This document shows positions 301 to 22,160 of a stretch of 24,027 nt of DNA, one piece after another (position 1 is the first letter of the stretch; the number at the start of each line of letters is the position of its first letter). This DNA comes from a virus: positions 1-24,027 of IMG/VR virus record IMGVR_UViG_3300028114_000106. One strand, given 5' to 3'. Both the position numbers and the translations under genes were made by a program. The notes beneath the pieces are model-generated. The model did no database searches and had not been told where the DNA came from. It saw nothing but the letters and a program-made list of their open reading frames with translations.

Positions 301-735
301 TCAAAATGGAACGTCGTCTTCTGCTTCGGCCTGCGCTTCCGCCGGCGTCGGCTCCACGGCGGCAGGTCTCGGGCGGGGCGCTGGTGCAGGCCTGTCGGTT
401 GCCTGGCTTTGCGGAGGCCCTCCAACGAACTGCCACTCATCGACCACAACGCGGGTCTTGGTCTCCTTCTTCCCGTCCTTCTCCGTGGTGGTGACGCTGA
501 CGCGGCCTTCGCAGTGCACGCAGCGACCCTTCTTCAGGTTGGCGGCGAACGCTTCGGCACGTTTGCCCCAGATCGTGATGCCGATGAAATCCACCTCTTC
601 CTTCCACTCGTCGTTCACCTTCACGCGGCGGTTGACGGCAAGCGTAGCGTTGCAGACGGCGGTTCCTTTCGGGGTGTATCTGAGTTCAGGGTCCCGGGTC
701 AGGTTCCCGGCAATGAAGCATTTGTTGAGGTTCAC
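301..735 (-). CDS. ssb: Single-stranded DNA-binding protein (SSB)
   Basis: This 144-residue protein has an N-terminal OB fold (about residues 1-106; MNLNKCFIAGNLTRDPELRY at the start, WGKRAEAFAANLKKG in the middle). A Pro/Ala-rich linker follows. The acidic C-terminal tip ends DDVPF, matching the SSB tail that recruits partner proteins. It coats ssDNA during phage replication and recombination. The start is GTG 735, which overlaps the previous stop by 4 nt (GTGA). The length is somewhat short for a bacterial SSB (about 170) but usual for phage versions. It shares an operon with RecT, a RecE-like exonuclease and RusA. The intact tip followed by TGA also shows that TGA is a real stop here. Confidence 0.96.
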   Translation of the reverse strand: MNLNKCFIAGNLTRDPELRYTPKGTAVCNATLAVNRRVKVNDEWKEEVDFIGITIWGKRAEAFAANLKKGRCVHCEGRVSVTTTEKDGKKETKTRVVVDEWQFVGGPPQSQATDRPAPAPRPRPAAVEPTPAEAQAEAEDDVPF

Positions 736-902
736 TTCGCTTCCTTTCTCTGCTTCTGCGCCTTCCCGCTGCGGGCGTATCCGGCCACGCGGATGCCTCG
801 GCGGGCAAAGAACGCCCTATAGCCGCGGTCGATCATGCGCTGGTCTGCGTCCGTGATGGTTGGCATCCGCCATTCCTGAATCTTGATGGTGCTCGGTTTC
901 AT
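732..902 (-). CDS. Small basic hypothetical protein
   Basis: A 56-residue protein starts at ATG 902, overlapping the RusA stop by 4 nt (ATGA), and ends inside the GTGA junction with SSB. It is rich in Arg and Lys, especially in the last 20 residues (RVAGYARSGKAQKQRKEAK). A short conserved-looking core reads TITDADQRMIDRGYRAFFARRGI. No family is recognised. The tight coupling on both sides and its place between RusA and SSB suggest a role linked to DNA transactions, but that is inference only. The longer upstream reading of the same frame (from 1004) lies inside RusA and was not used. Confidence 0.75.
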   Translation of the reverse strand: MKPSTIKIQEWRMPTITDADQRMIDRGYRAFFARRGIRVAGYARSGKAQKQRKEAK

Positions 903-1351
903 TCCACGTCCTCGGTGATTGTGATGTTGCAGCCGGTGCCCATCGACCCCGATGCGTACCGCTTTCGGATCCGCCCGTCCGTGACCTGCGAATCGTCCGC
1001 CCACACCCCGGCGGCGGTGATGGCGTCACAGACAGCCTTGTCGAGGTTGTCGCGGTCAGGCTTACCAGTTGGTTTTGTGGGCGCTGACGCTTTCAGCGTG
1101 TTGGCGTTCTTGCCGCTCCCAAGATGCCCCTTGGGGCGAGGCAGGTAGAACGTCAGGTCGCACCGAAGTGGGACTCCAGCCGGAAATGATCCAGCGACGG
1201 CAACGAGCGCACGCAGCGTGTGAATGACACAGGCCTTCCACTCGTTGGACGTGCCCGGGTTATACATTCGAGCGTGCCCGCGGAATGAAACCGCACGCGG
1301 GCGGGGTTGGGCCACTGGTAGGCCTGGGACGAAGACGGTGAGTGATTTCAT
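899..1351 (-). CDS. rusA: RusA-type Holliday junction resolvase
   Basis: The 150-residue protein matches the RusA endonuclease family, which cuts four-way DNA junctions in a metal-dependent way. Key features are the N-terminal strand followed by PVAQPRPRA, the catalytic segment KPDRDNLDKAVCDAI (D99, D101, K105), and the later acidic pair D119-D120 before SQV. These correspond to the family's conserved aspartates. It would resolve recombination intermediates made by the RecT/RecE-like pair upstream in the operon. The ATG at 1351 follows the previous gene's stop by one codon (TGA-CCC-ATG), in the same frame. Its stop overlaps the next start as ATGA. Confidence 0.93.
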   Translation of the reverse strand: MKSLTVFVPGLPVAQPRPRAVSFRGHARMYNPGTSNEWKACVIHTLRALVAVAGSFPAGVPLRCDLTFYLPRPKGHLGSGKNANTLKASAPTKPTGKPDRDNLDKAVCDAITAAGVWADDSQVTDGRIRKRYASGSMGTGCNITITEDVE

Positions 1352-1932: not shown

Positions 1933-2201
1933 GACGCCACCTCCCAGTTACTCAACAACCTGTCAGCACCCAAGTCGTGGCAATGTCGGCGAAGCTCTGC
2001 GGCCATGGCATCTCCGGCTTGTTTCATCTTGGCTATTTTCTCCCCCAGCTTTGCGACCTCGCCGCGGAGGCACTCACGGGTCTGCCAGTTGCGGCTCGTC
2101 GGACTGTCTTCGAGAACCAGCGTCTGGCAGGCGTACGCCTTCCCGTGGTCGTAGTGCGTCGTGAACCTCTGGCCGCAGAAAGGGCGTGGTAACTCGATCA
2201 C
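1929..2201 (-). CDS. Hypothetical protein with Cys motif and helical segment
   Basis: A 90-residue protein from GTG 2201, overlapping the exonuclease stop (GTGA). The first part has PRPFCGQRFTTHYDHGKAYAC, resembling half of a zinc ribbon. The middle (ECLRGEVAKLGEKIAKMKQ) looks like a coiled coil, followed by AAELRRHCHDLGADRLL. An earlier start at 2237 would lie inside the exonuclease gene and lacks support. No family is recognised. It is one of several Cys/His-bearing small proteins grouped in this operon (1-296, 1720-1932), which might act as nucleic-acid-binding accessories; that is inference. Confidence 0.72.
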   Translation of the reverse strand: MIELPRPFCGQRFTTHYDHGKAYACQTLVLEDSPTSRNWQTRECLRGEVAKLGEKIAKMKQAGDAMAAELRRHCHDLGADRLLSNWEVAS

Positions 2202-3103
2202 AGCGCCCCCTTTCGCATCCAGCGGGGGAGGTCCCACTCCGCGGCTTCATCGGTGTAGCCGGGCCACTGGTTGGCCAGGACGCATCGGATGTAGGTGTCG
2301 AGGGTGGACTGGTACGCCTCGCGCCCTGCTTGCAGGAGCGCGTCCGTCATCCGGTGAACCTTCACGAGACCGATTGTCCGCTCGTACGCGATGAACTTGA
2401 ACCCGGTGAACATGCTGCTCCCGAGGCGGTCCCAGGCGTCAATGTAGAACGCTGCCTGTAGGTGGTACCCCATGTCCCACGCGTGCCGCTGGAATCCTTC
2501 CGGTGAGGCGTCGGCGCATGTCTTCAGGTCGCCCATGTCAGTCCCGACCGGCACGAGGTCCAGTCGCGCCTTGCACGGGAAAGGGCCGGTGGGGTGATCG
2601 TGGTTCCACAGAAGCGTTACCTCTGTGTCCGCGCCTTCCAGAAGTTCACGGGCCTCGCGGTTGGCAAGCACGCGTTCGAATGCGCACTCGATCTCCTCGA
2701 GGTCGGAGCGGTCGACCACGATGAACCCGGCCGCTTCCTGCATCGCCAACCACTCGCGGCAGTACTTCGTCCGCGGGTTCCATTCCACGAGGTCGCCGGC
2801 TCTTGCTCCACCCTTCTTGACCGTCGTTGAGTCCTCGGGGATGGGGTATGTCTCCGGGATCACCGAGATGGCGGGGAACGGTTTCGACGGTTCGAGGATC
2901 CGGTGGTGGACCAGAGTGCCAAGCACCATCTCCCACGTGGGCGCTTTCGGGTTCTGGAGCTTGTGGTATAGGTGCGCTGGGGTCCTTCCGTGCAGCTCGC
3001 GGAGTTGCGATGCGGACGCGGCCCAGCGGATGCCGTGGTATTTCCCGGGAAGGATGTCCCTGTGGACACCTTCCTTGATCGTGGGGAGTTGGATGGGGCT
3101 CAC
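2198..3103 (-). CDS. RecE-like PD-(D/E)XK exonuclease
   Basis: A 301-residue protein similar to the phage exonuclease family DUF3799/RecE C-terminal nuclease. It would resect dsDNA ends 5' to 3' to give ssDNA for the RecT partner. Landmarks are the early helix SASQLRELHGRTPAH, LGTLVHHRILEP with H66, CKARLDLVP with D182, GDLKTCADAS with D192-x-K194, and YHLQAAFY (Y213, Q216). These correspond to the H, D, D-x-K and Q-x-x-x-Y positions of the RecE/lambda-exo class. The GTG start at 3103 overlaps the upstream stop (GTGA); extending upstream in frame only runs inside the preceding gene. Linkage to recT three genes upstream supports the role. Confidence 0.9.
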   Translation of the reverse strand: MSPIQLPTIKEGVHRDILPGKYHGIRWAASASQLRELHGRTPAHLYHKLQNPKAPTWEMVLGTLVHHRILEPSKPFPAISVIPETYPIPEDSTTVKKGGARAGDLVEWNPRTKYCREWLAMQEAAGFIVVDRSDLEEIECAFERVLANREARELLEGADTEVTLLWNHDHPTGPFPCKARLDLVPVGTDMGDLKTCADASPEGFQRHAWDMGYHLQAAFYIDAWDRLGSSMFTGFKFIAYERTIGLVKVHRMTDALLQAGREAYQSTLDTYIRCVLANQWPGYTDEAAEWDLPRWMRKGAL

Positions 3104-3837
3104 GACGCACCGCCTTCCACCTTCTCCTCGCTCGCCTTCACAAGTGCTTCGAGGCTGGCCTTGAATCCATCGAAGGCGTCCTTGCCGAGGTTGTCGACGA
3201 TCCACTCCTTGGCGCGGCGTGCGGCCTTGCGGATGGCGTCCGAGCGTTCCTTGGTGCTGGGCTGCTCGCTGTGCAGGCGCTCAGAGATGGACTTGGCCCC
3301 TACCTGAATCCGGAGGGCGGTGAACCACTTTCCGTTCTGTCGGCCGATGACGATCACGCCTCGGTCATTTCCTGCTGGCAGGAAGATCGGAAGTTCATCC
3401 CGCTGCTCGAAGACGCTCTCGGCGATGATCAGGTCCTGCTGGAAGTCGTCGCCGGTCATTGGCTCGTCCAAGACTGGGGCGGAGTCCTCCGGGGCGTCCT
3501 CGAGGTAGAAGAACTTCCGGCGAGCCTTCGCGTCGTAGACCACGCGGCAGCGGGCCTCGCGCATCTCGAACCCGGCTTGCAGCTTGTCGCCAAGGCTGTC
3601 GATCTTGGCCTTTGCCTCCTCCGTGCGGAGGTTGAACGAGGCCTTCACGCTCTTGAACTCGCTCTCGACGTTTCGAGCCGCGGCGATGGCCGCTCCGAGA
3701 CTGCTGGCGAATTGCAGCCTCTCGGCGTCGGTGAAGGTGTGCTTCACGAACTTGGCCTCGATCTTCGCGCTGGTCCGTGTCGCCGGATTCGGGTTCTCAG
3801 CGGCTTCTTTTTCGGGGATGTAATCTGCGGATTTCAT
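3100..3837 (-). CDS. RecT-neighbourhood hypothetical protein
   Basis: A 245-residue protein with a helical, coiled-coil-like first half (about residues 35-105; FTDAERLQFASSLGAAIAAA, then ESEFKSVKASFNLRTEEAKAKIDSLGDKL). A central segment MREARCRVVYDAKARRKFF follows, then an acidic linker. Residues about 180-245 form a second, mostly helical domain. Proteins with this helical-plus-Cys-Val pattern often sit beside recT in phages, but I cannot name a family. The ATG at 3837 follows a 21-nt gap after the coiled-coil gene with no strong Shine-Dalgarno site. Its stop overlaps the exonuclease start (GTGA), which suggests coupled synthesis with the nuclease. Confidence 0.8.
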   Translation of the reverse strand: MKSADYIPEKEAAENPNPATRTSAKIEAKFVKHTFTDAERLQFASSLGAAIAAARNVESEFKSVKASFNLRTEEAKAKIDSLGDKLQAGFEMREARCRVVYDAKARRKFFYLEDAPEDSAPVLDEPMTGDDFQQDLIIAESVFEQRDELPIFLPAGNDRGVIVIGRQNGKWFTALRIQVGAKSISERLHSEQPSTKERSDAIRKAARRAKEWIVDNLGKDAFDGFKASLEALVKASEEKVEGGAS

Positions 3838-3858
3838 GATGTGTCTTGCTTGGTTGTT

Positions 3859-4686
3859 TCAGGTTCTGACGACTGCCTTCACATCCTGATAGATGCGAAG
3901 CCCGGGGATATCGCGCTCGCCATGGCGAACCCGGGTGAGGATGTCGTTTCGGCGAACAATGAGGTCGACCAACTCCGGTCGCGCGGCGTGCAGAGCTTTA
4001 ATGTCCAAAACCTCGAACGCCCACGGGTTTGATACGGCGGTTCCGGCGGGCTTTGGCGCGACCGGAGCCGGCGCTCGAAGCGTCTCGTCTTGCGCGAGCT
4101 TTGCCGCGTCCGCCTCTTTCTGCTTCTGGGCGCCCAGAGCGGTAGCCTTCTCCGCCGCCTCCCTGGCTTCCTGCTGGGCCTTGGCGCGGGACTTGGCATC
4201 GGTTGCCTCGCGGGCCTTGCGATCAGCCTCCGCTTTGGCCGCTTCAGCCTCGCGGGCCTGACGGTCCAACTCCCGCTGCTTCGCGGCCGCCTCTTCCTGC
4301 TGGCGTCGCAGTTCGGCCTGGCGCTTCGCCTCGGCCTCGCGGGCGATGCGCTGCTGTTCGGTCACCCACCTCAGGTGGATCCCGGACAGCCGCTTCTTCG
4401 CTAGTTCCAGCGGGTCCACGAATGTCTTGGCGGCGTCGTCGATCTTCCGCCCGAGGTCCAGAGTCGGAGCCTTCGCTTCCTTGCGTCCGTCCTCGGCGAG
4501 CTTTAGAAGCCGGTTGATCTCGCGTAGGGCGTTGAGGATTTCGGACTCGGTGTCGGCGTCGGTGATGGCGTCGGGGCAGAAGTCGGCGGTGTCAATCACC
4601 GCCTTGCGCTTCGAGTAGGCTTCTTCCCACACCTCGACCTTCACTAGGTCGACGCCACTGACGGCGATGAGGTTGGAGGTGCTCAC
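3859..4686 (-). CDS. Coiled-coil recombination-module protein (DUF1351-like)
   Basis: A 275-residue protein coupled to recT (ATGA at 4683-4686). The N-terminal domain is mostly helical (about 1-100). A long charged coiled coil covers about residues 105-210 and is built almost wholly of Ala, Glu, Lys, Arg and Gln. A small C-terminal domain reads WAFEVLDIKALHAARPELVD and ends PGLRIYQDVKAVVRT. This arrangement, and the C-terminal phrase with PGLRI, is typical of proteins next to RecT in phages (DUF1351-like). The exact job is unknown; it may help load or organise the annealase. The coiled coil has strongly repetitive codon content, so shadow frames here are long and should be ignored. Confidence 0.85.
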   Translation of the reverse strand: MSTSNLIAVSGVDLVKVEVWEEAYSKRKAVIDTADFCPDAITDADTESEILNALREINRLLKLAEDGRKEAKAPTLDLGRKIDDAAKTFVDPLELAKKRLSGIHLRWVTEQQRIAREAEAKRQAELRRQQEEAAAKQRELDRQAREAEAAKAEADRKAREATDAKSRAKAQQEAREAAEKATALGAQKQKEADAAKLAQDETLRAPAPVAPKPAGTAVSNPWAFEVLDIKALHAARPELVDLIVRRNDILTRVRHGERDIPGLRIYQDVKAVVRT

Positions 4687-5897
4687 TTCACACCCCCTTC
4701 CACGAACGCCTTTGCCTGCCGCACGAACCCTGCAAGACTGCCCATGATCCTATTCACCAGCGTCTCGTCCAGTTCCTCGAAGCTGTCCACGGTTACCTGC
4801 AGGTTGCGCTTCTCGCCCATCCACTGGCAGAACGCGTCGAAGTTGACGCCGTTCTCCACGAAGGCGTCCGCAATGTGCTGGCGCTTGGCGTCGAGTTCGG
4901 TCTGGGTCTTCGCCTTGATCTTGGCGTAGTTCGCGGCCTTCACGTCCTCGACCGGCTGGAGGTCGGCTTGCCGAACGGGATCCGGTGACGCAGTGTCGGC
5001 GTTGTCGGCTTCGGCTGGGGCGGGTTCTGGGTCGTGTTGCGTGGACTCAATCGCAGCAGCCTGCGGCGCGTGGAACAGCGGCCCGCGTGCCGGGGTGACG
5101 TTGACAGCCTTCTCTATTGGATCCTCGCTGGCGTCATCCTTCTCGACCGCGTCGCGGAACTCCGGAGACAACGGCACCATCTTACAGAGGCGACGAAGGG
5201 CGGTCTTCTTCTTCATCTCCTGCTCGCTCACCCAGTCCGATGGATCCCAAGGGTTCTTTTTCGTGAACCCCTTCTTGAACGCCTGCCAACCCTGGCTGTT
5301 GTCGCGGATGCTGTAGACCTCATCAATGCTCATGACGGCCACCGCAGAGGACCCGTTGGTCATGCGGGCGTAGGCATAGACGGCGATGTCCTGACCGGCC
5401 TCGGCGGGCTTTTCTTCGTCGCGACGGAGGAACCAAGGGACGTGCCGCTTGATCTCGCCCAAGGAGAACTCGAACAGGTCGCCTTCGCGCACAACGTCGG
5501 CGTACAGGTACGAGACTAGTCCGGAACGCATCGCCAACTCGACCAGTCCCTTGTAGTCGATGATGAGAGTGCAGATCATGACGTTGTTGCGATTGTCCTC
5601 GAACGGGATCAGGTGGGCGCGCCTACCGTCCGGCTCCAACCCGAGGGCGGAGCAGTCGAGCATGCAGCGGGTCAGGCTGTCTGCCGTGCATTGGAGGAGC
5701 TTCGGCGTCTTCATGGTCGCCGTCAGAGCGACCCGAATCATGCGCTCGGCCGTCATGTGCTTGGGCAGGACCTTGGCGATCTCCACCCGGAACAGCGGGC
5801 CTTCAAGGAGGCTCTTCACGTCCTTGCGGGCGGCTGACGTTGTTGGCTTTGATGGTGCTTGCGCGGCCTGTCTGACCGCTGGTGTCTGTGTACTCAT
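4683..5897 (-). CDS. recT: RecT-family ssDNA annealing protein
   Basis: A 404-residue protein whose first 270 residues match the RecT/beta-like annealing family. It binds ssDNA and anneals complementary strands, working with the exonuclease at 2198-3103. Diagnostic segments are MTAERMIRVALTATMKTPKL, CSALGLEPDGRRAHLIPF, TLIIDYKGLVELAMRSG, AYARMTNGSSAVAVMS and WVSEQEMKKKTALRRLCK. The C-terminal 130 residues are acidic and extended, with a final helix, and make it longer than the typical 270-residue RecT. The ATG at 5897 has no purine-rich Shine-Dalgarno site. It is preceded by ACATCTCCC, a string also found before an internal ATG in the tail chaperone gene at 16623. Confidence 0.95.
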   Translation of the reverse strand: MSTQTPAVRQAAQAPSKPTTSAARKDVKSLLEGPLFRVEIAKVLPKHMTAERMIRVALTATMKTPKLLQCTADSLTRCMLDCSALGLEPDGRRAHLIPFEDNRNNVMICTLIIDYKGLVELAMRSGLVSYLYADVVREGDLFEFSLGEIKRHVPWFLRRDEEKPAEAGQDIAVYAYARMTNGSSAVAVMSIDEVYSIRDNSQGWQAFKKGFTKKNPWDPSDWVSEQEMKKKTALRRLCKMVPLSPEFRDAVEKDDASEDPIEKAVNVTPARGPLFHAPQAAAIESTQHDPEPAPAEADNADTASPDPVRQADLQPVEDVKAANYAKIKAKTQTELDAKRQHIADAFVENGVNFDAFCQWMGEKRNLQVTVDSFEELDETLVNRIMGSLAGFVRQAKAFVEGGVK

Positions 5898-6428: not shown

Positions 6429-6599
6429 TCAGAGTTGTCCGGCGTGAATCGCCCGCGCCATGCGGAACAGGTTGGCGGACTCGGCCATGTCGGCCGACAC
6501 GCGCCATAGGATCACAGTCTGCGTCGCGCAACGTCGCCATAGGAGGGCGAGGCGTGCAGCCTGCGCAGCTTGTCCGGTGTAGAGTGGTATAGGTGTCAC
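6429..6599 (-). CDS. Small hypothetical protein, 56 residues
   Basis: An ORF from GTG 6599 to TGA 6429. The encoded protein (YTGQAAQAARLALLWRRCAT, then VSADMAESANLFRMARAIHA) is protein-like, with two predicted amphipathic helices and normal composition. A competing minus frame over the same bases gives an Arg/Pro/His-rich product typical of shadow ORFs. It starts 12 nt after the stop of the 72-residue gene and ends 4 nt before ATG 6424 with TGA-TTTT-ATG. No ribosome-binding site is obvious and the start is non-ATG. Function unknown. Confidence 0.5.
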   Translation of the reverse strand: MTPIPLYTGQAAQAARLALLWRRCATQTVILWRVSADMAESANLFRMARAIHAGQL

Positions 6600-6611
6600 G
6601 GGGCAGGTGGA

Positions 6612-6830
6612 TTATGCGCGAAAGATAGGGCACATGGAGAACTTGCCGAGGGCGTAGATGAATTCTCCGCTGCCAGCGTTGTGAATCTTCACTCGGCGCG
6701 TGTTGCCCTCGGCCTTGACCGTGACAAACTGCCCATTGCGCTCCAGAACCTCCGCTGTGAACACGCAGTCATGATCGCAAATGCTGCGCGCCTTGAGTGT
6801 CATTCCCGCCTGAATTGTTCCGTTCGTCAT
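6612..6830 (-). CDS. Conserved small beta-rich phage protein, first gene of early operon
   Basis: A 72-residue protein starting at ATG 6830. It has an alternating beta pattern (GMTLKARSICDHDCVFTAEV, then QFVTVKAEGNTRRVKIHN) and ends ALGKFSMCPIFRA. Small proteins with this RS-CDHDC-FTA...YSM-P-FRA layout recur in phages and integrative elements, but without a known function. It is the first gene downstream of the paired operator sites at 6852-6888, so it should be the first product of the regulated early transcript. No clear Shine-Dalgarno site precedes the ATG, fitting a transcript that may begin close to the gene. Confidence 0.8.
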   Translation of the reverse strand: MTNGTIQAGMTLKARSICDHDCVFTAEVLERNGQFVTVKAEGNTRRVKIHNAGSGEFIYALGKFSMCPIFRA

Positions 6831-6851
6831 ATGCCGACAATGCGTGATCCA

Positions 6852-6888
6852 TTGCGCGGGCGCAACAGCTATTTTTGCGCGGGCGCAA
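6852..6888. promoter_or_regulatory. Operator pair 1 upstream of early operon
   Basis: Two identical copies of the near-palindrome TTGCGCGGGCGCAA lie at 6852-6865 and 6875-6888, 23 bp apart (about two helical turns). Each has 6-bp perfect arms (TTGCGC/GCGCAA) around GG. The second copy overlaps the 3' end of the HTH gene; the first lies just downstream, 22 bp before the ATG at 6830. Related sites occur on the other side of the HTH gene (7109-7144). The natural reading is that the HTH protein binds here to control the early operon. I do not assign exact -35 and -10 boxes. Confidence 0.75.
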
Positions 6889-7087
6889 TTTTGTTGTCAC
6901 CGATCATCCGGTCAGCGGATTCGAGGAGCGCCAGATACGTCGGCAGGCTGGGCGTTTGCGAGCGGTGGAGAATGCGCCACAGCGTCGAATGCGCGATGCC
7001 CGCATCCTCGGCCCACGTTTGCGTGCTCCATCCGGCCTCCTGAAGTTTGCAGCGAATTGCCCTGAGTTCCTTTCGGAAATTTGCCAT
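6869..7087 (-). CDS. XRE-like helix-turn-helix regulator
   Basis: A 72-residue DNA-binding protein. The HTH reads STQTWAEDAGIAHSTLWRIL (about residues 20-39). It follows a basic N-terminal helix and precedes LPTYLALLESADRM. It is about the length of small Cro/CI-type single-domain regulators. ATG 7087 is preferred. A TTG at 7144 would add 19 residues, but its codons overlap the operator repeats at 7109-7144, so the shorter form is likely. Two operator pairs flank the gene (6852-6888 and 7109-7144). This suggests autoregulation plus control of the early operon and of the divergent gene at 7189. Whether it acts as a repressor of lysogeny or as a Cro-like switch cannot be told. Confidence 0.85.
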   Translation of the reverse strand: MANFRKELRAIRCKLQEAGWSTQTWAEDAGIAHSTLWRILHRSQTPSLPTYLALLESADRMIGDNKIAPAQK

Positions 7088-7108
7088 GGCGGGAAGGTGC
7101 CTGCCGTA

Positions 7109-7144
7109 TTGCGAGGATGCAAGATTGGAGTTGCGTTGGTGCAA
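7109..7144. promoter_or_regulatory. Operator pair 2 in divergent promoter region
   Basis: TTGCGAGGATGCAA (7109-7122) and TTGCGTTGGTGCAA (7131-7144) share the TTGCG-N4-TGCAA pattern and lie 22 bp apart. They match operator pair 1 (TTGC-N6-GCAA) with 3 differences each from its sequence. They sit between the HTH gene start (7087) and the plus-strand gene start (7189), where a divergent promoter is expected. This fits binding by the HTH protein to control itself and the gene at 7189. The variation between copies suggests sites of different affinity. Confidence 0.7.
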
Positions 7145-7188
7145 TGGGTTGGCTAGTTGTGAATCCGAAATGAAACAGAAAAGAACTC

Positions 7189-7374
7189 ATGGACTACCAT
7201 CTGCAAATTGAGCACTTGTGCGCAACTATCGCAGGCCTGCTGAAGGACGTTGAAACCTTGCAGGCGTTGCGAAAGGAGGACGCCGCCAAGCTGAAGCAAT
7301 GGCAGGAGGACGCGAAGTTCGGCCGGCGGTGCCGGTTCTACGTTGAAGCCATGGCAGAGCTTCGGGATCGCTGA
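7189..7374 (+). CDS. Small coiled-coil protein, the only plus-strand gene
   Basis: A 61-residue ORF from ATG 7189 to TGA 7374, divergent from the HTH gene and convergent with the late operon. It is helical throughout (IEHLCATIAGLLKDVETLQA, then KEDAAKLKQWQEDAKFGRR), so it probably dimerises. A weak purine run (AGAAAAG) precedes the start. Its place beyond operator pair 2 is the place of the opposing gene in a phage genetic switch, but it has no HTH of its own. It could be an antirepressor-like partner or a DNA-metabolism accessory; neither is shown. Confidence 0.6.
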   Translation: MDYHLQIEHLCATIAGLLKDVETLQALRKEDAAKLKQWQEDAKFGRRCRFYVEAMAELRDR

Positions 7375-7439
7375 GCCCCTGGATTGATCGCCATGTGCGC
7401 TCCGATTCTCATCGACATGCTCAACTCCGTTGCGCCACC

Positions 7440-7625
7440 TCAAGGCTGCGACGGGAAAGTCGGGTCGTCGAAGTCGTAATCAACCCAAGGCCCGTACTCG
7501 TCAGGTGTGTCGGACTTCACCACCCGGATCCACACCCGGACATTCCCGGGTGCAGCAAACGTCCCCGAGGCTGCGGAATGCCGTGGTTTGCCGCTCGTTT
7601 GACGAGTCCTGACAAGATTCCTGAT
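7440..7625 (-). pseudogene. Remnant of tail-tip gene 3' end
   Basis: In this frame the minus strand encodes SAASGTFAAPGNVRVWIRVV and continues to PTFPSQP and TGA 7440, nearly the same as the last 45 residues of the tail-tip protein (8549-11137). The frame is open only back to a TAA at 7626-7628 and has no start codon, so it is a fragment. Of six base differences from the intact copy, four are silent and two give E to D and G to D. This suggests the fragment was once part of a working gene, or came from a related phage. The glycosyltransferase gene ends inside it in a different frame. Confidence 0.8.
7444..7577. repeat. 134-bp direct repeat, copy B
   Basis: Bases 7444-7577 match 8553-8686 over 134 bp in the same orientation with 6 mismatches and no gaps. 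The repeat unit begins GGCTGCGACGGGAAAGTCGG in both copies and ends GAGGCTGCGGA. The two copies flank the glycosyltransferase gene. Beyond both ends the sequences differ abruptly. Confidence 0.97.
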
Positions 7626-8544
7626 TTAGCGAGAAACTCCGCAGAACCGCCCGAACCACGTCCTCGACCGTGATCGAGGACATGCACCGCGGCAGGTCTC
7701 CGTCCACGTCCGCGCACAGCAGCCTTTCAGCGTCAAGTCGCGACCCGTCACCCAGCGCACGCGTCCGAGCCCTCCAGCAGCCTCCCAGCGCGCAGCAAGG
7801 CAAGGAGCCGATGACGTCGAGGACCCGGTGCCCCGGGTACGAAAACCAATGCGCAGGCTCCCTGCCTCCAGCCACGACGACGCACGGGCGGAGCCCGCGC
7901 ACACCGTCAGGCCTCGGCACTGCGGCCGAAATGTGCATCGGGAGCGTAATTGGACACAGGACACCGGACGCGTGATGCGTCAGCAGGACGAGGTCGCGCA
8001 GCGATGTCCTCCCGACCATGTCGACGACGCCGGAAAGGCGCGGGTGGCAATCCGTTGCAGCGCCCACCTGGACGAACTGCACCCGGCCGCGCAGAGCGTC
8101 TACGACCCCCTGCCACCGCTCGGTAGCCCACCACTTCACCGTGAAGTCCCGCTTCCCGCCTGCGGCGATGATCCAGTAGGGGCCAGCAACCACTGGAGGG
8201 CGTGCGCGCTCCTCCTGCGTCAGGTGGATGTCCCCGCGGAACTCTGTCGTGGCGATGGCGACGCCCAGAACCTCGGAAAGGTAACGGCTGAACCCCTCGA
8301 TGATGTGGCGCGGGGAGTGCCATGATTCGTGGATTGACGGGTAGCGCATCTCGATCATCTCCGCTCCAGTCTCTTCGTCGGGGATGGCGGTGATCCACGG
8401 GTTTCCGGACCACAGGTCTGGATGGTTGGTCCTCACGTCCACCGCGAACCTCCCTGGCTGTGATCGATGCAGGTCCCGCACCGCTGCCGTCAGGGTGACC
8501 ACGTCCCCAGGCGGCATGTTGGTGCGCAGGATGAGGCGGCGCAT
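7501..8544 (-). CDS. GT9-type (heptosyltransferase-like) glycosyltransferase
   Basis: A 347-residue protein resembling family 9 glycosyltransferases, which transfer sugars such as ADP-heptose to LPS. Family-like features are the N-terminal RLILRTNMPPGDVVTLTAAV, a second Rossmann domain starting YWIIAAGGKRDFTVKWW, FVQVGAATDCHPRL, VLCPITLPMHISAA, and a Cys-rich end with CCALGGCWRAR and LPRCMSSIT. ATG 8544 lies 4 nt after the tail-tip stop; the longer upstream frame overlaps that gene. The core ends near residue 305. The last 25 residues are read out of frame through the duplicated tail-tip fragment, so the native stop seems to have been lost. As the last late gene it looks like an acquired cargo gene, perhaps altering host surface glycans. 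Confidence 0.8.
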   Translation of the reverse strand: MRRLILRTNMPPGDVVTLTAAVRDLHRSQPGRFAVDVRTNHPDLWSGNPWITAIPDEETGAEMIEMRYPSIHESWHSPRHIIEGFSRYLSEVLGVAIATTEFRGDIHLTQEERARPPVVAGPYWIIAAGGKRDFTVKWWATERWQGVVDALRGRVQFVQVGAATDCHPRLSGVVDMVGRTSLRDLVLLTHHASGVLCPITLPMHISAAVPRPDGVRGLRPCVVVAGGREPAHWFSYPGHRVLDVIGSLPCCALGGCWRARTRALGDGSRLDAERLLCADVDGDLPRCMSSITVEDVVRAVLRSFSLNQESCQDSSNERQTTAFRSLGDVCCTRECPGVDPGGEVRHT

Positions 8545-8548
8545 GGCA

Positions 8549-11137
8549 TCACGGCTGCGACGGGAAAGTCGGATCCTCGAAATCGTAATCAACCCAAGGC
8601 CCGTACTCGTCAGGTGTGCCGGACTTCACCACCCGGATCCACACCCGGACATTCCCGGGCGCGGCAAACGTCCCCGAGGCTGCGGAGATTGTCACCACCG
8701 GCGCGGAGTAGGGGCTGGACCCGGTGAAGTCTTCACCAGCGTCAACGATTGCGTACTCTATCGACGTGGTTCCAGAAGCTCCGGTGACGGTAACGTTACC
8801 GCTGGCGTCTCGGGAAACCTCCTCCGGAGGTCCGAGCGGAGTCGGGCTCTGGCTGGCGTACGGCGAGAAGATCAGCGCCTTGTGCAGCGAGAGCAGTCCG
8901 GATGAATCGTAGACCGTGGCGTGAACCCAAAACGATGCCGCGTCCTCAAGCGGGAACGTGAACACTGGATCCGGGTATGAGCCCAGTGCGAAGATGTCCG
9001 CGAACGTCATCTCGCGCGTCGGACGGAACGACTGATCGATGATCTCCGTCCATGACTCGTATCCGACCTGCCGGTACTCAATGCGAAGGCGGGTGGCGTT
9101 GCCGTCCGCGTCTTGGACCCTGTCCGTCGTGCTCTCCACGATGTCCCACACGCCCTCCGACGCCAACTCGCGCGGGAACGCGTTCCGGATGAGACCCCAG
9201 CGAGACCCGACCACGCGAGGCTTCCGGCTGGACCACGCGGAGAACTGCGCAGGGAAATCGGTGAGGGTGCTGTCGTAGGTTGAGAACGCGTTGAAGCTCC
9301 GGAGATGAAACGTCATCTCCGTCCCGTCGTTCAGGCGGTCCCGAAACGTGGTGTGGAAATGGCCAACCAGCGAGGAGCGCGGGACAATCCATGCGGTGGA
9401 ATCCTCCAGCCACTCGGCGCGAGGCGTCGCAAAGCGGGAGCGGAGAACGGTGAAATCGTAGGTGTCCGTCGAGACCGCCGCGCTCTCCTGAATGCTCATG
9501 ATTTCAATGTCAGGCACGTCCCCAACGAGGTCCACTAGCCCATCTGTGGATCGGTAACAGATGACGAGCAGGGTGTCGTCCTGGGCGCCAGATGGCCCGG
9601 GCTGTGCGAGGGCAAGCCGCTGGTCCAGAGTCTCCATAATCTCCAGCCGGATGTCCCCGGAGGCGGTGGCGGAGTAATCCGCGTCGACCCGGCACTTCAC
9701 GGCGAACCTGATCTGGGTGCCAATGGCGACGAACGTCCCGGCGCCGTCCTCAACGTCGAACTCGACATCACACCCGGTCACCATCTCGTCCGGCCTGGTC
9801 GCCAGAACCGCAATCCGCGGCTCCCGGCCTGCGGACAGGGCGAGCGGCAGGGGAATCAGGATCGCATCCGTGATGTTGCTCGGCTCTGGCGTGGCGTTCT
9901 CGGGCACGGTGTAGGCTGGGGAGAATGGAACCTGCGGGGAGATGGATTCAGCCTGCCACCGGATGGAGACCCCGCCCTTCTGGCCTCGGCGCATGTCGAG
10001 CACGCGGACGAGTTGCGAGGACCCGGACCCGCCCGGGGTGCTGTCGACGTCCAGCCGGATCCGGTCGCCCGGCTGGATAGGCTCGCCGGCGATTGGGGAG
10101 CCAGTTGGGTGACGTAGGATGGTGGCGGAACGGATGTAGGCGGTACCACTCAGTACCGGGCGGCAGAAACGCTTCGCCCACTCGGCGCAGACGCGGCGGG
10201 CCTGCTCGCTGGAGGTGATCCATTTCCGGTCGATGGACGTGCGCCGATTCTCGCCCACGAGCTGGAGCGCAAGGGGATCGTCATGGATCATGACGTCCTC
10301 CTTGAATTGGCGGTCCTTGTTCGCAAACCGCAACGCGATGCCGGTGGGCACGTCGTCCCACGTCTGTGCGTCGACCTCTGGCGGCTTCGAGTAATCGTTC
10401 TCGGTCAACTGGAGGTATAGCGACAGGCTCCCAGGGTCCAGCGTCGGCTGCACGGCCTCGACCTCTCCCGAGCCGGTGACGCGCAATAGACCTCCGAAAC
10501 TACCTAGGAGCCCGTCGCAAAATGTCCGCGCCTCCTGCTGCGATGTGAGCAGGGGGGCGGCGTAGCTGAGGAGCTTCAGTTCCGCATCGTCTTCAAGGTA
10601 ATCGTGCGCGGACTGGAACGACGCCGCGTCAAGCCTTGCGTCCTCCAACCCAAGCCCGTGACGGCTGGTTAGCAGGTCCGCAACGATGGCCCACGGATTG
10701 GCGCGATCATCAGAGACCGAGGTGGACGTGATTATCCCGGACGGCGGCGTCGGCGCGGCCGTCGCGATGAATTCAATGTTCGGCAGGTTGGTGCGCTCTC
10801 GACCGCACAAGAACCGGCAGAAGACGATGTAGCAGAATCCGCGGTAAGGAGGATGCCCGTGGAGCTCGAGGGCGGCGTCGGCGGTCTGGCTGTCGGTGCC
10901 CCAGTAGAGTTTGATGTAACCACCTTCGAGCAACCACTTCGAGTCTGCGGGCGTGATGGTGTACGGGTTTCCGACGCCTCCATCCGTCCGGTTGATCGGC
11001 CCTTCCCAGATGGCTTTCCCGTCGACGAGGAGCGCGTGCGCCGTGTCGACTAAGCCAGCGCGGAACACGGCAGCGAACGTCGCGTAGTAGTCGTAGCTTT
11101 TTGAGCCTCCGCCTTGGCCTTTTGAATCACTTCCCAT
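8549..11137 (-). CDS. Tail-tip / central fibre protein (GTA-gp15 / phage-tail_3-like)
   Basis: An 862-residue protein. The N-terminus has a Gly/Ser/Lys-rich stretch, SDSKGQGGGSKSYDYYATF, followed by AVFRAGLVDTAHALLVDGKA, the opening of J-like and GTA tail-tip proteins. Residues about 30-420 resemble the hub domains of such proteins (for example HGHPPYRGFCYIVF and ANPWAIVADLLTSRHGLGL). The rest, about 430-862, has fibronectin-like and beta-rich segments ending VWIRVVKSGTPDEYGPWVDY. It probably forms the tip that meets the host receptor. The gene is in the same frame as the 61-residue ORF upstream, separated only by TGA-CCT. Its 3' end is duplicated beyond the glycosyltransferase. Confidence 0.88.
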   Translation of the reverse strand: MGSDSKGQGGGSKSYDYYATFAAVFRAGLVDTAHALLVDGKAIWEGPINRTDGGVGNPYTITPADSKWLLEGGYIKLYWGTDSQTADAALELHGHPPYRGFCYIVFCRFLCGRERTNLPNIEFIATAAPTPPSGIITSTSVSDDRANPWAIVADLLTSRHGLGLEDARLDAASFQSAHDYLEDDAELKLLSYAAPLLTSQQEARTFCDGLLGSFGGLLRVTGSGEVEAVQPTLDPGSLSLYLQLTENDYSKPPEVDAQTWDDVPTGIALRFANKDRQFKEDVMIHDDPLALQLVGENRRTSIDRKWITSSEQARRVCAEWAKRFCRPVLSGTAYIRSATILRHPTGSPIAGEPIQPGDRIRLDVDSTPGGSGSSQLVRVLDMRRGQKGGVSIRWQAESISPQVPFSPAYTVPENATPEPSNITDAILIPLPLALSAGREPRIAVLATRPDEMVTGCDVEFDVEDGAGTFVAIGTQIRFAVKCRVDADYSATASGDIRLEIMETLDQRLALAQPGPSGAQDDTLLVICYRSTDGLVDLVGDVPDIEIMSIQESAAVSTDTYDFTVLRSRFATPRAEWLEDSTAWIVPRSSLVGHFHTTFRDRLNDGTEMTFHLRSFNAFSTYDSTLTDFPAQFSAWSSRKPRVVGSRWGLIRNAFPRELASEGVWDIVESTTDRVQDADGNATRLRIEYRQVGYESWTEIIDQSFRPTREMTFADIFALGSYPDPVFTFPLEDAASFWVHATVYDSSGLLSLHKALIFSPYASQSPTPLGPPEEVSRDASGNVTVTGASGTTSIEYAIVDAGEDFTGSSPYSAPVVTISAASGTFAAPGNVRVWIRVVKSGTPDEYGPWVDYDFEDPTFPSQP
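8553..8686. repeat. 134-bp direct repeat, copy A (within tail-tip gene)
   Basis: This copy encodes about the last 45 residues of the tail-tip protein and ends at its stop codon region. It is 95 percent identical (128 of 134 bases) to copy B at 7444-7577, 1109 bp away. Being in frame and intact, it is the original or functional copy. Confidence 0.97.
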
Positions 11138-12080: not shown

Positions 12081-14083
12081 TTCTTGCCTGCGTTTCCGCT
12101 GTTGCGTTTGACCGCGATCAAGTTCGGCGCGGCAATCGGGACGAACGGGAACCCGCCGAAGTTGTCGCCGTTCGCGAACTTGTCCTCGGCGGTCTCGATG
12201 GTCCCGTCGTAACCCGGGATGAGTTGCCACAGAACCTCCGACGTCGTGACAGCCGGGGATGGCGCGTAGGCCAGCGTGACCGTCAGGCTCCCGCCAGATT
12301 CCGCGGTCGAGGAAATGATTGGGATCCGGGCGTAGTTCGGGGCAGGCCGGACAGCGTACCCGAGGGCGAAGTAATTCGCGGCGAGCGTCGGCAGCGCGCC
12401 CCCGGGCCATGCCAGCGTGTCCAGCGTCACCACCTCGTTGGTCTGTGAGGTTGCGGTGCCCGTGAACGTCCAATCAGCCACGTCCAACCCGTTACCATCC
12501 TCCCCGAGCGCCCAGTTGTCGCGGGTCTGCATCAGGGTCCGAGGGATGACTCGGTCAAAAACGGCGGCGGCTCCGTCAATCGTTGCCTGCAAGGATCCGC
12601 TCCTGCGCTTCACCCCGCGAACGTGCCCTGTGAAGATCGCTTCCTTGCCGGCGATGTCGGTCGGGTCCGCCTCATAGATCGTCAGCGTCATCCGCTCCCA
12701 GAGCGTGCCTGCAACGGACCGGAGCAGTGGGTTGTCTGTCCAGATGCCTGTCTTGAGGCTCACGCTGGTCTTGTCGATTGCCGTGCTCTGTGTGATGTCA
12801 CCGTGCTCAATTTGCTTAGCTGTCCACGTCGGGGAGGTTCCAAGGTCGGCGTCGTGACTGGTGAACGTCCACGACTCAGCCCCGGCCGTGAACTCGTACA
12901 GGTACACCACTGGATCGAGGACTCCAATCGTGGTCCCCGCCGTCTCCCCGCTTGGCGTGCTAACCTCCTCTCGGATTTCTACAAGGCCAACCGTGGTCGT
13001 CATGACCGGGAGCTTGTCGGCGCGGATGGTGATCGTGTCGGCGGCGAACCTGACCAAAGCCAGCGTGATGATGGCGGTGGACGCGGCGGCGAGCGTGCCC
13101 GGGGATGAATCCAGCGTCAGGACGTTGCCTGCAATCGACAGGACGTTGCGCGTGATGATTGACCCGTCCGTCAGAAGGAACGCCACGCGACGGTAGGACC
13201 CGAGCGCGGTGGCATTGTTCAAGGTGACGTTCGCGGACCCGCTCGACGTGTTCGAGGCGAGCCGCATTTCCTCCGTCCAGACCGGGATCCAGAACGGTTT
13301 CACGCTCCCGGTGTGGTCAGAGAACCACCGGAGCAGCTTCGAGAGCGCGGTAGGACCGTTCAGCGTGAGCGTGTGCTGCGGGTTGCGGACGGCGAGCTGC
13401 GGGTAAACGTGGCGGGCAACGTCGCGGCCGAACCCGATCCGTTGGCTGAACTCGACGGTGACGGAGTTGGCCCCAGGGTCAGTGGCCTTGAAGTCCAACA
13501 GTTCGAGCGGGAAGACGTAGGTGGTGACCCCTGCAACGGTTGGTCCCGGGGTCCACGTTTCGCTCGGAATCGTGACCGCCTCGTCGGCTGGCCCGGCCTC
13601 ATCGAATCGAACCTGCCCGCGAACCCATCGCGGGTCCAAGAGGTCCCAGTCCACGGGTTGCGTCAGGTACCCGCGCATGGTTGGGACGGAAACTTGTGAC
13701 CCGGTCGGCGTCGGGGTGGACGTCGCCCATGTGCCAGACGACAGAGCCCCAGCCTCGCCTTGAGTGCCGGTTACCCAGTGCTTGGTTTCCAGCGTCGCGG
13801 ATTCCCCAGCGCCAAACCCTGCGGGCCAGAGTGGAACCTGCACAGGCAACTCCCCGCTGGACGTGTGCGAGGTCTCGCGCTGCGCGGCGTAGAGTGCCGT
13901 GCTGATGGTGACGGTGTACTCCAGTCCAAGGCGCAGTGTGGACGACAGTGCCCTCCGGGTCTCGCGGCCCGTGAGCCCGCGCTCCTTGTCGGTCTCCACG
14001 GATGCTCGCAGCGTCATGCCGCGGCCGTCCGGGACCCACAGGCACGCCTGCCGGCTTTCGCTGTCGAGGGTGACCGTTGTCAC
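12077..14083 (-). CDS. Tail hub protein with BR0599-like C-terminus
   Basis: A 668-residue, beta-rich protein from GTG 14083 (GTGA overlap with the tape measure gene). An N-terminal segment (about 1-330) resembles distal tail proteins, with FSQRIGFGRDVARHVYP. The middle and C-terminus (about 350-668) match the DUF2163/phage BR0599 type seen in GTA gp13. Examples are VYLYEFTAGAESWTFTSHDA, and near the end EDKFANGDNFGGFPFVPIAA. So it may fuse two tail-tip roles in one chain: distal tail ring and hub. The typical Cys pair of the BR0599 end (ligands in GTA gp13) is not obvious here. Position directly after the tape measure supports the role. Confidence 0.8.
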   Translation of the reverse strand: MTTVTLDSESRQACLWVPDGRGMTLRASVETDKERGLTGRETRRALSSTLRLGLEYTVTISTALYAAQRETSHTSSGELPVQVPLWPAGFGAGESATLETKHWVTGTQGEAGALSSGTWATSTPTPTGSQVSVPTMRGYLTQPVDWDLLDPRWVRGQVRFDEAGPADEAVTIPSETWTPGPTVAGVTTYVFPLELLDFKATDPGANSVTVEFSQRIGFGRDVARHVYPQLAVRNPQHTLTLNGPTALSKLLRWFSDHTGSVKPFWIPVWTEEMRLASNTSSGSANVTLNNATALGSYRRVAFLLTDGSIITRNVLSIAGNVLTLDSSPGTLAAASTAIITLALVRFAADTITIRADKLPVMTTTVGLVEIREEVSTPSGETAGTTIGVLDPVVYLYEFTAGAESWTFTSHDADLGTSPTWTAKQIEHGDITQSTAIDKTSVSLKTGIWTDNPLLRSVAGTLWERMTLTIYEADPTDIAGKEAIFTGHVRGVKRRSGSLQATIDGAAAVFDRVIPRTLMQTRDNWALGEDGNGLDVADWTFTGTATSQTNEVVTLDTLAWPGGALPTLAANYFALGYAVRPAPNYARIPIISSTAESGGSLTVTLAYAPSPAVTTSEVLWQLIPGYDGTIETAEDKFANGDNFGGFPFVPIAAPNLIAVKRNSGNAGKK

Positions 14084-21869: not shown

Positions 21870-22160
21870 CTACTTCTTGCGCTTCGTGTCGGCCGGAGGC
21901 GTGGGAGGCGTCTTCGCATCCTCGTCCTTCGTGTCGGCCGGAGGCGTGGGAGACGCGGCTTCCTTTGGATTCTGGAACTTGACGCGGGACGTGATCCCGG
22001 AGCCGGACTCCCAAAGCTGCACCTCGGAGTACTCCGGATGTTCGCGGAGGCTCTTCAGCTTCTTGACCTGCGCCTTCTGCTCCTCGATCGGGACGGTGGT
22101 GTCGGACAGGAAAAGCACGCTCTGGTCGTGCTGCACTGCGACTGTGATTGCGGTCCTCAT
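21870..22160 (-). CDS. Small Pro-rich-tailed protein, head module
   Basis: A 96-residue protein from ATG 22160 with a good ribosome site (GAAAGGAACC before ATG). Residues 1-62 form a compact beta/helix part (ITVAVQHDQSVLFLSD; VQLWESGSGITSRVKF). The tail carries two PTPPADTK copies (residues 71-78 and 86-93) with acidic and Lys-rich spacers, ending KRKK. It may be an assembly or head-neck accessory. Function unknown. Confidence 0.75.
   Translation of the reverse strand: MRTAITVAVQHDQSVLFLSDTTVPIEEQKAQVKKLKSLREHPEYSEVQLWESGSGITSRVKFQNPKEAASPTPPADTKDEDAKTPPTPPADTKRKK
21882..21952 (-). repeat. Two 26-bp tandem coding repeats (45-nt period)
   Basis: A 26-nt sequence (starts CTTCGTGTCGGCCGGAGGCG) occurs at 21882-21907 and again, unchanged, at 21927-21952. 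Both encode PTPPADTK in the small head-module protein. Exact identity suggests recent duplication by slippage, with repeat number possibly variable. Confidence 0.9.

Follow-up and report, generated by a model that had tools for sequence, protein, structure and literature searches.

How did a phage come to carry an enzyme gene between two copies of the end of its own tail gene? The window analysed here, i.e. the whole stretch of DNA, is the complete 24,027-base IMG/VR record of an uncultured phage. On its minus strand, genes for the capsid, the tape measure, the hub, an NlpC/P60-like protein and the tail tip are followed by a glycosyltransferase gene and, farther left, by genes for RecT, a DUF3799 nuclease, RusA and a single-strand binding protein (SSB) (Table 1). 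The closest cultured relative of the capsid is that of Verrucomicrobia phage P8625 (28% identity), a weak hint as to the host. On the left side of the locus, the stem-loop TTGCGCGGGCGCAA is present twice, 23 bases apart (6852-6888), between a small ORF (6612-6830) and an HTH gene; these stem-loops are possibly an operator or terminator pair.

Table 1. Coordinates in the window of the features discussed in the text.
Feature	Position	Strand	Basis
Single-strand binding protein	301..735	-	PF00436, 4.8e-29
RusA Holliday-junction resolvase	899..1351	-	PF05866, 1.4e-21
PD-(D/E)XK nuclease-like protein (DUF3799)	2198..3166	-	PF12684, 1.9e-14
RecT single-strand annealing protein	4683..5897	-	Pfam RecT, 2.8e-35
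Convergent 61-aa ORF, downstream (X) side	7189..7374	+	ORF list
Intergenic gap, 65 bp, from the end of the tail operon to the convergent small ORF	7375..7439		
Lower copy, 3'-terminal fragment of a putative second tail-tip allele, in frame to TGA, 95% identical	7440..7577	-	
Single irregular joint, glycosyltransferase side meets tail-gene fragment	7577..7578		tail homology begins at 7577
Spacer, 61 bp, G+C 0.49, between glycosyltransferase core and lower copy	7578..7638	-	
GT9-family glycosyltransferase, 347 aa as read	7501..8544	-	Pfam PF01075 (Glyco_transf_9), 5.2e-7
Glycosyltransferase conserved core, residues ~1-302	7639..8544	-	end of alignments with homologues
Upper copy, the tail-tip gene's own 3' end (45 codons and the stop TGA)	8549..8686	-	
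Tail-tip / baseplate-hub-like gene (J-like), 862 aa	8549..11137	-	ORF and profile matches

The tail-tip assignment is based on a match to the PHROG tail family phrog_1101 (1.1e-19), with phrog_4271 (tail) also matched, and on the place of the gene after the tape-measure, hub and NlpC/P60-like genes; Pfam Phage-tail_3 remained below its cut-off. By tblastn, the sole match of the tail gene among cultured phages was the "GTA-like baseplate hub protein" of Pseudanabaena phage Pan1 (7e-6).

The first-pass annotation had described two 134-bp copies of the tail-gene end matching at 128 positions, with four of the six changes silent. This count was correct on realignment, and four further bases, including the TGA stop, lengthen the repeat to 138 bp and add a seventh difference, which is silent. 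A repeat search of the window gives 131/138 identical positions (95%) at a spacing of 1109, with identical runs of 40, 36 and 23 bp. No other repeat in the window comes near this length, the next family measuring only 29 nt. The onset of the 138-bp repeat is abrupt (7577/8686) and its end coincides with the tail-gene stop (7440/8549). The lower copy keeps the register of the tail gene and its frame is open to the same TGA, but no tail-gene similarity was found above 7577; besides the tail gene itself, the contig holds only this 45-codon end as a match to it. As an independent observation, two 29-bp direct repeats, 45 bp apart (21882-21955), lie in the C-terminal part of ORF 21870-22160 and encode a repeated TPPADTK-type peptide.

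The gene between the copies belongs to the GT9 family, with a PF01075 profile score of about 29.7-29.8 bits against a curated cut-off of 22. Its frame runs on the minus strand from the ATG at 8544 and, as had been proposed, it ends out of frame within "copy B", the stop at 7501 falling inside 7440-7577; this label fits the lower-coordinate copy only when the copies are named in the order of transcription. The frame crosses half of that copy, which encodes about the 25 last residues of the glycosyltransferase, out of register. Since the alignments with viral homologues stop at residues ~300-308, the core of the enzyme is complete at about 7639. The motifs GGKxDFTxKWW, GGREP and CCxxGGCW are intact and, in a 16-member alignment, the window enzyme keeps 63 of the 75 columns invariant in the 15 homologues, main motifs included. 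It is nevertheless an outlier, with 12 of these 75 residues changed compared with 0-4 in the other members. Judging from its family, it probably modifies either a glycan on the host surface or a protein of the virion; virion glycosylation is mentioned for mycobacteriophages in PMC11256854, which cites Freeman et al. 2023.

At its 5' side, the glycosyltransferase gene starts 4 nt past the tail stop codon (TGATGCCATG), a junction that looks like an ordinary operon junction. In a simple consensus scan of 6500-8800 the gene was neither preceded by a promoter-like site nor followed by a terminator; the one weak terminator-like stem in that region lies inside the gene. In the codon comparison proposed in the first-pass annotation, codon use agrees with that of the neighbours (GC3 of 0.805 versus 0.72-0.83), so a recent foreign origin is not supported and the gene more likely came from a related phage than from a foreign genome. 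At the 3' side the situation is different: as judged from the sequence, 7577/7578 is the only non-homologous joint of the locus. The spacer next to it has a G+C content of 0.49, versus 0.67 for the enzyme gene and 0.64 for the tail gene, and contains a small inverted repeat, CTCGT-CAA-ACGAG.

We then considered the seven differences between the copies, which lie at positions 7554, 7551, 7510, 7473, 7467, 7464 and 7443 of the lower copy. Third codon positions hold six of them (P ~0.007 under neutral change) and five are silent (P ~0.023 under neutral change); these P values weaken if some of the changes arose in the functional copy after the duplication. The two differences that are not silent are a Gly/Asp and a Glu/Asp change. 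Because the differences are mostly at silent third positions, they suggest, with the moderate weight that seven differences allow, that the copies are alleles which diverged while both worked as tail genes.

We consider it probable that the locus is a recombination scar, left by one illegitimate, out-of-register crossover between two related phages. The first parent would have had a tail-tip gene with the glycosyltransferase gene directly after it; the second, a related phage, a tail-tip allele whose end differed by about 5% and which was followed directly by the X side, from 7439 downwards, so that the 65-bp gap would be the native downstream flank of this second allele. The crossover would have fused the 3' side of the glycosyltransferase gene of the first parent to the tail gene of the second at a site 45 codons short of the stop, giving the order tail, glycosyltransferase, tail-end fragment, X, with the glycosyltransferase gene flanked by 138-bp direct repeats. 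Such a product would be viable, because neither the tail gene nor the core of the enzyme was broken. Insertion of a segment made of tail end and glycosyltransferase gene would give the same final sequence, but it requires a second exchange. It had been proposed that the gene entered by recombination near a tail-gene end or by exchange with a related phage. Recombination with a related phage at this place is the best-supported part of that proposal, given that most differences between the copies are silent and at third positions; entry of the gene at this site is less well supported, in view of its neighbour-like codon use, its operon-like start and the sole irregular joint at its 3' end. The glycosyltransferase gene may have long stood beside the tail gene and have been joined only later to the tail-gene end of a second phage.

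Other origins have to be weighed against this crossover. The last 138 bp could have been copied past the glycosyltransferase gene within a single genome, by slippage, by template switch or by tandem duplication of tail end and glycosyltransferase gene with loss of the second glycosyltransferase gene, after which the copies drifted. Such an in-situ duplication makes a second phage unnecessary, and a short copied segment would fit with a repeat that ends at the stop codon and with the lack of further tail sequence. However, a dead copy should change at all codon positions, and here six of seven differences are at third positions and both frame and stop are open; as the differences are so few, we regard this origin as no more than rather unlikely. 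The coding-type divergence and the in-frame stop would be accounted for equally well if two ancestral paralogous tail-tip genes had surrounded the glycosyltransferase gene and the second had been reduced to its end, but there is no trace of the gene body, the homology halts at 7577 and only the 45-codon end matches, which makes such a relic improbable.

Two further possibilities concern the nature of the copies themselves. The contig comes from a metagenome, near-identical strain contigs are known (L037, 99.9%), and two strain variants could have been joined during assembly. Yet the contig contains no N (0 bases), and a k-mer chimaera would be expected to switch within the repeat, where the longest identical run is 40 bp, and not outside of it at 7577/7578; we give an artefact of this type a very slight chance. 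The position and the length of the copies also resemble the variable and template repeats (VR/TR) of a diversity-generating retroelement, the upper copy being the variable repeat and the lower one the template, a geometry similar to that of phage BPP-1. The substitution pattern effectively refutes this possibility, whose probability we take as negligible: the differences are not confined to template adenines, only two of the seven lying at would-be template adenines (coding strand), and most are silent. A search for reverse transcriptase (PF00078), positive controls included, gave no match in the contig, which may be a fragment.

We searched viral contigs, bacterial genomes, cultured phages and plasmids for relatives. 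No parent and no empty-site relative was found among them and, beyond the one remote hub protein mentioned above, they contained no usable relative of the tail gene; a degenerate pattern for the C-terminus of the tail gene found no relative either. Capsid and hub searches identified the same phage type in five contigs (L037-L041), of which L037 and L038 are near-identical sisters and L039 and L040 are relatives with 85-92% capsid identity, but every one of these contigs stops short of the locus, that of L037 ending at window base 12528. No prophage was found with the capsid profile against bacterial genomes. A RecT relative (L042) turned out to be a different phage, and L018, a contig whose glycosyltransferase is 51% identical and which also gives a weak tape-measure match, lacks a similar tail gene.

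In the broad viral GT9 group we kept 80 loci, 35-51% identical to the window enzyme. None of the 80 has notable flanking direct repeats (the longest, 26 bp, is not adjacent to the gene), and a recurrent GT9 cassette was rejected on this ground: the repeat-flanked glycosyltransferase is a single event. In the sampled viral loci, the genes next to the GT9 gene encode methyltransferases and further sugar transferases rather than tail proteins. Among these loci, the closest GT9 relatives (50-51%; L003 at 2298-4070, L018 and L029) are fused to an extra domain of ~280 residues, and L018 and L029 also bear a weak tape-measure match. A similar gene order around the GT9 gene, followed by simple-repeat coding stretches, was seen in L013, L019, L026, L028, L033 and L036. 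Our literature searches found no published partial tail-gene duplication flanking a gene.

The arrangement could also be undone. It had been predicted that a deletion between the copies would excise the gene cleanly and leave an intact tail gene, and on paper this holds: in silico, wherever in the repeat the exchange is placed, the tail gene reads through without interruption as an 862-aa protein, whose end is one of three variants. The 1109-bp deletion restoring the plain tail gene, through the RecT of the phage or the RecA of the host, is plausible because RecT, the nuclease, SSB and RusA are encoded and the repeats share runs of 40, 36 and 23 bp. The shortest segments that suffice for pairing are given as 23-27 bp with Red-beta and 31-34 bp with RecA (PMC3945230), and genes 22% diverged recombine efficiently under Red-type systems (PMC2327257). 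RecT is the candidate agent for both the original exchange and the deletion, with the DUF3799 nuclease as its possible partner, and unequal exchange between the repeats could amplify the glycosyltransferase gene. We consider it very unlikely that the repeats act as a switch, with routine RecT-driven loss and re-acquisition of the glycosyltransferase in the population while the tail gene is kept; if they did, the phage would alternate between enzyme-bearing and enzyme-free forms.

The arrangement resembles several known systems in part. In lambda-like phages, the morons lom and cor, which encode outer-membrane or exclusion proteins, adjoin the tail-tip gene J. As in that case, the additional gene lies directly downstream of the tail-tip gene; unlike lom and cor, it encodes a GT9 enzyme, it is flanked by repeats of the tail gene and, in the simple scan, showed neither a promoter nor a terminator of its own. 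Lambdoid mosaicism, in which modules are exchanged at short diverged homologies (PMC3945230, PMC2327257), is also comparable, and the phage encodes RecT, but in contrast to homeologous exchange by RecT/Red one side is non-homologous here and a partial duplication was left. For prophage e14 of E. coli, PMC6379469 describes that it carries a near-identical replacement of the 3' end of icd, that a 163-bp duplicate is left, with a conservative Asp/Glu change between the ends (citing Hill et al. 1989), and that excision restores icd. The likeness to this account is that the 3' end of the target gene is duplicated almost identically and that excision would restore the gene. Unlike e14, which integrates site-specifically as a prophage, the segment here holds the glycosyltransferase gene alone, and an integrase-borne element of this type was rejected since no tyrosine integrase (PF00589) matched in the contig. 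In pneumococcal merodiploids, recombination of partly repeated fragments during transformation gives large duplications (PMC3784515). The common point is that unequal crossing-over yields a duplication bordered by repeats; the pneumococcal case differs from this phage locus in that it concerns bacterial transformation and large duplications.

The existing picture of phage mosaicism is unchanged by this repeat-flanked glycosyltransferase, which is best filed as another product of mosaicism with a well-preserved scar. It shows with unusual clarity how an enzyme gene can come to be attached to a tail gene that stays intact, in a phage with its own annealing recombinase. If both forms are present in the reads of the sample, the locus would allow repeat-mediated gene loss to be measured in a natural population of an uncultured phage.
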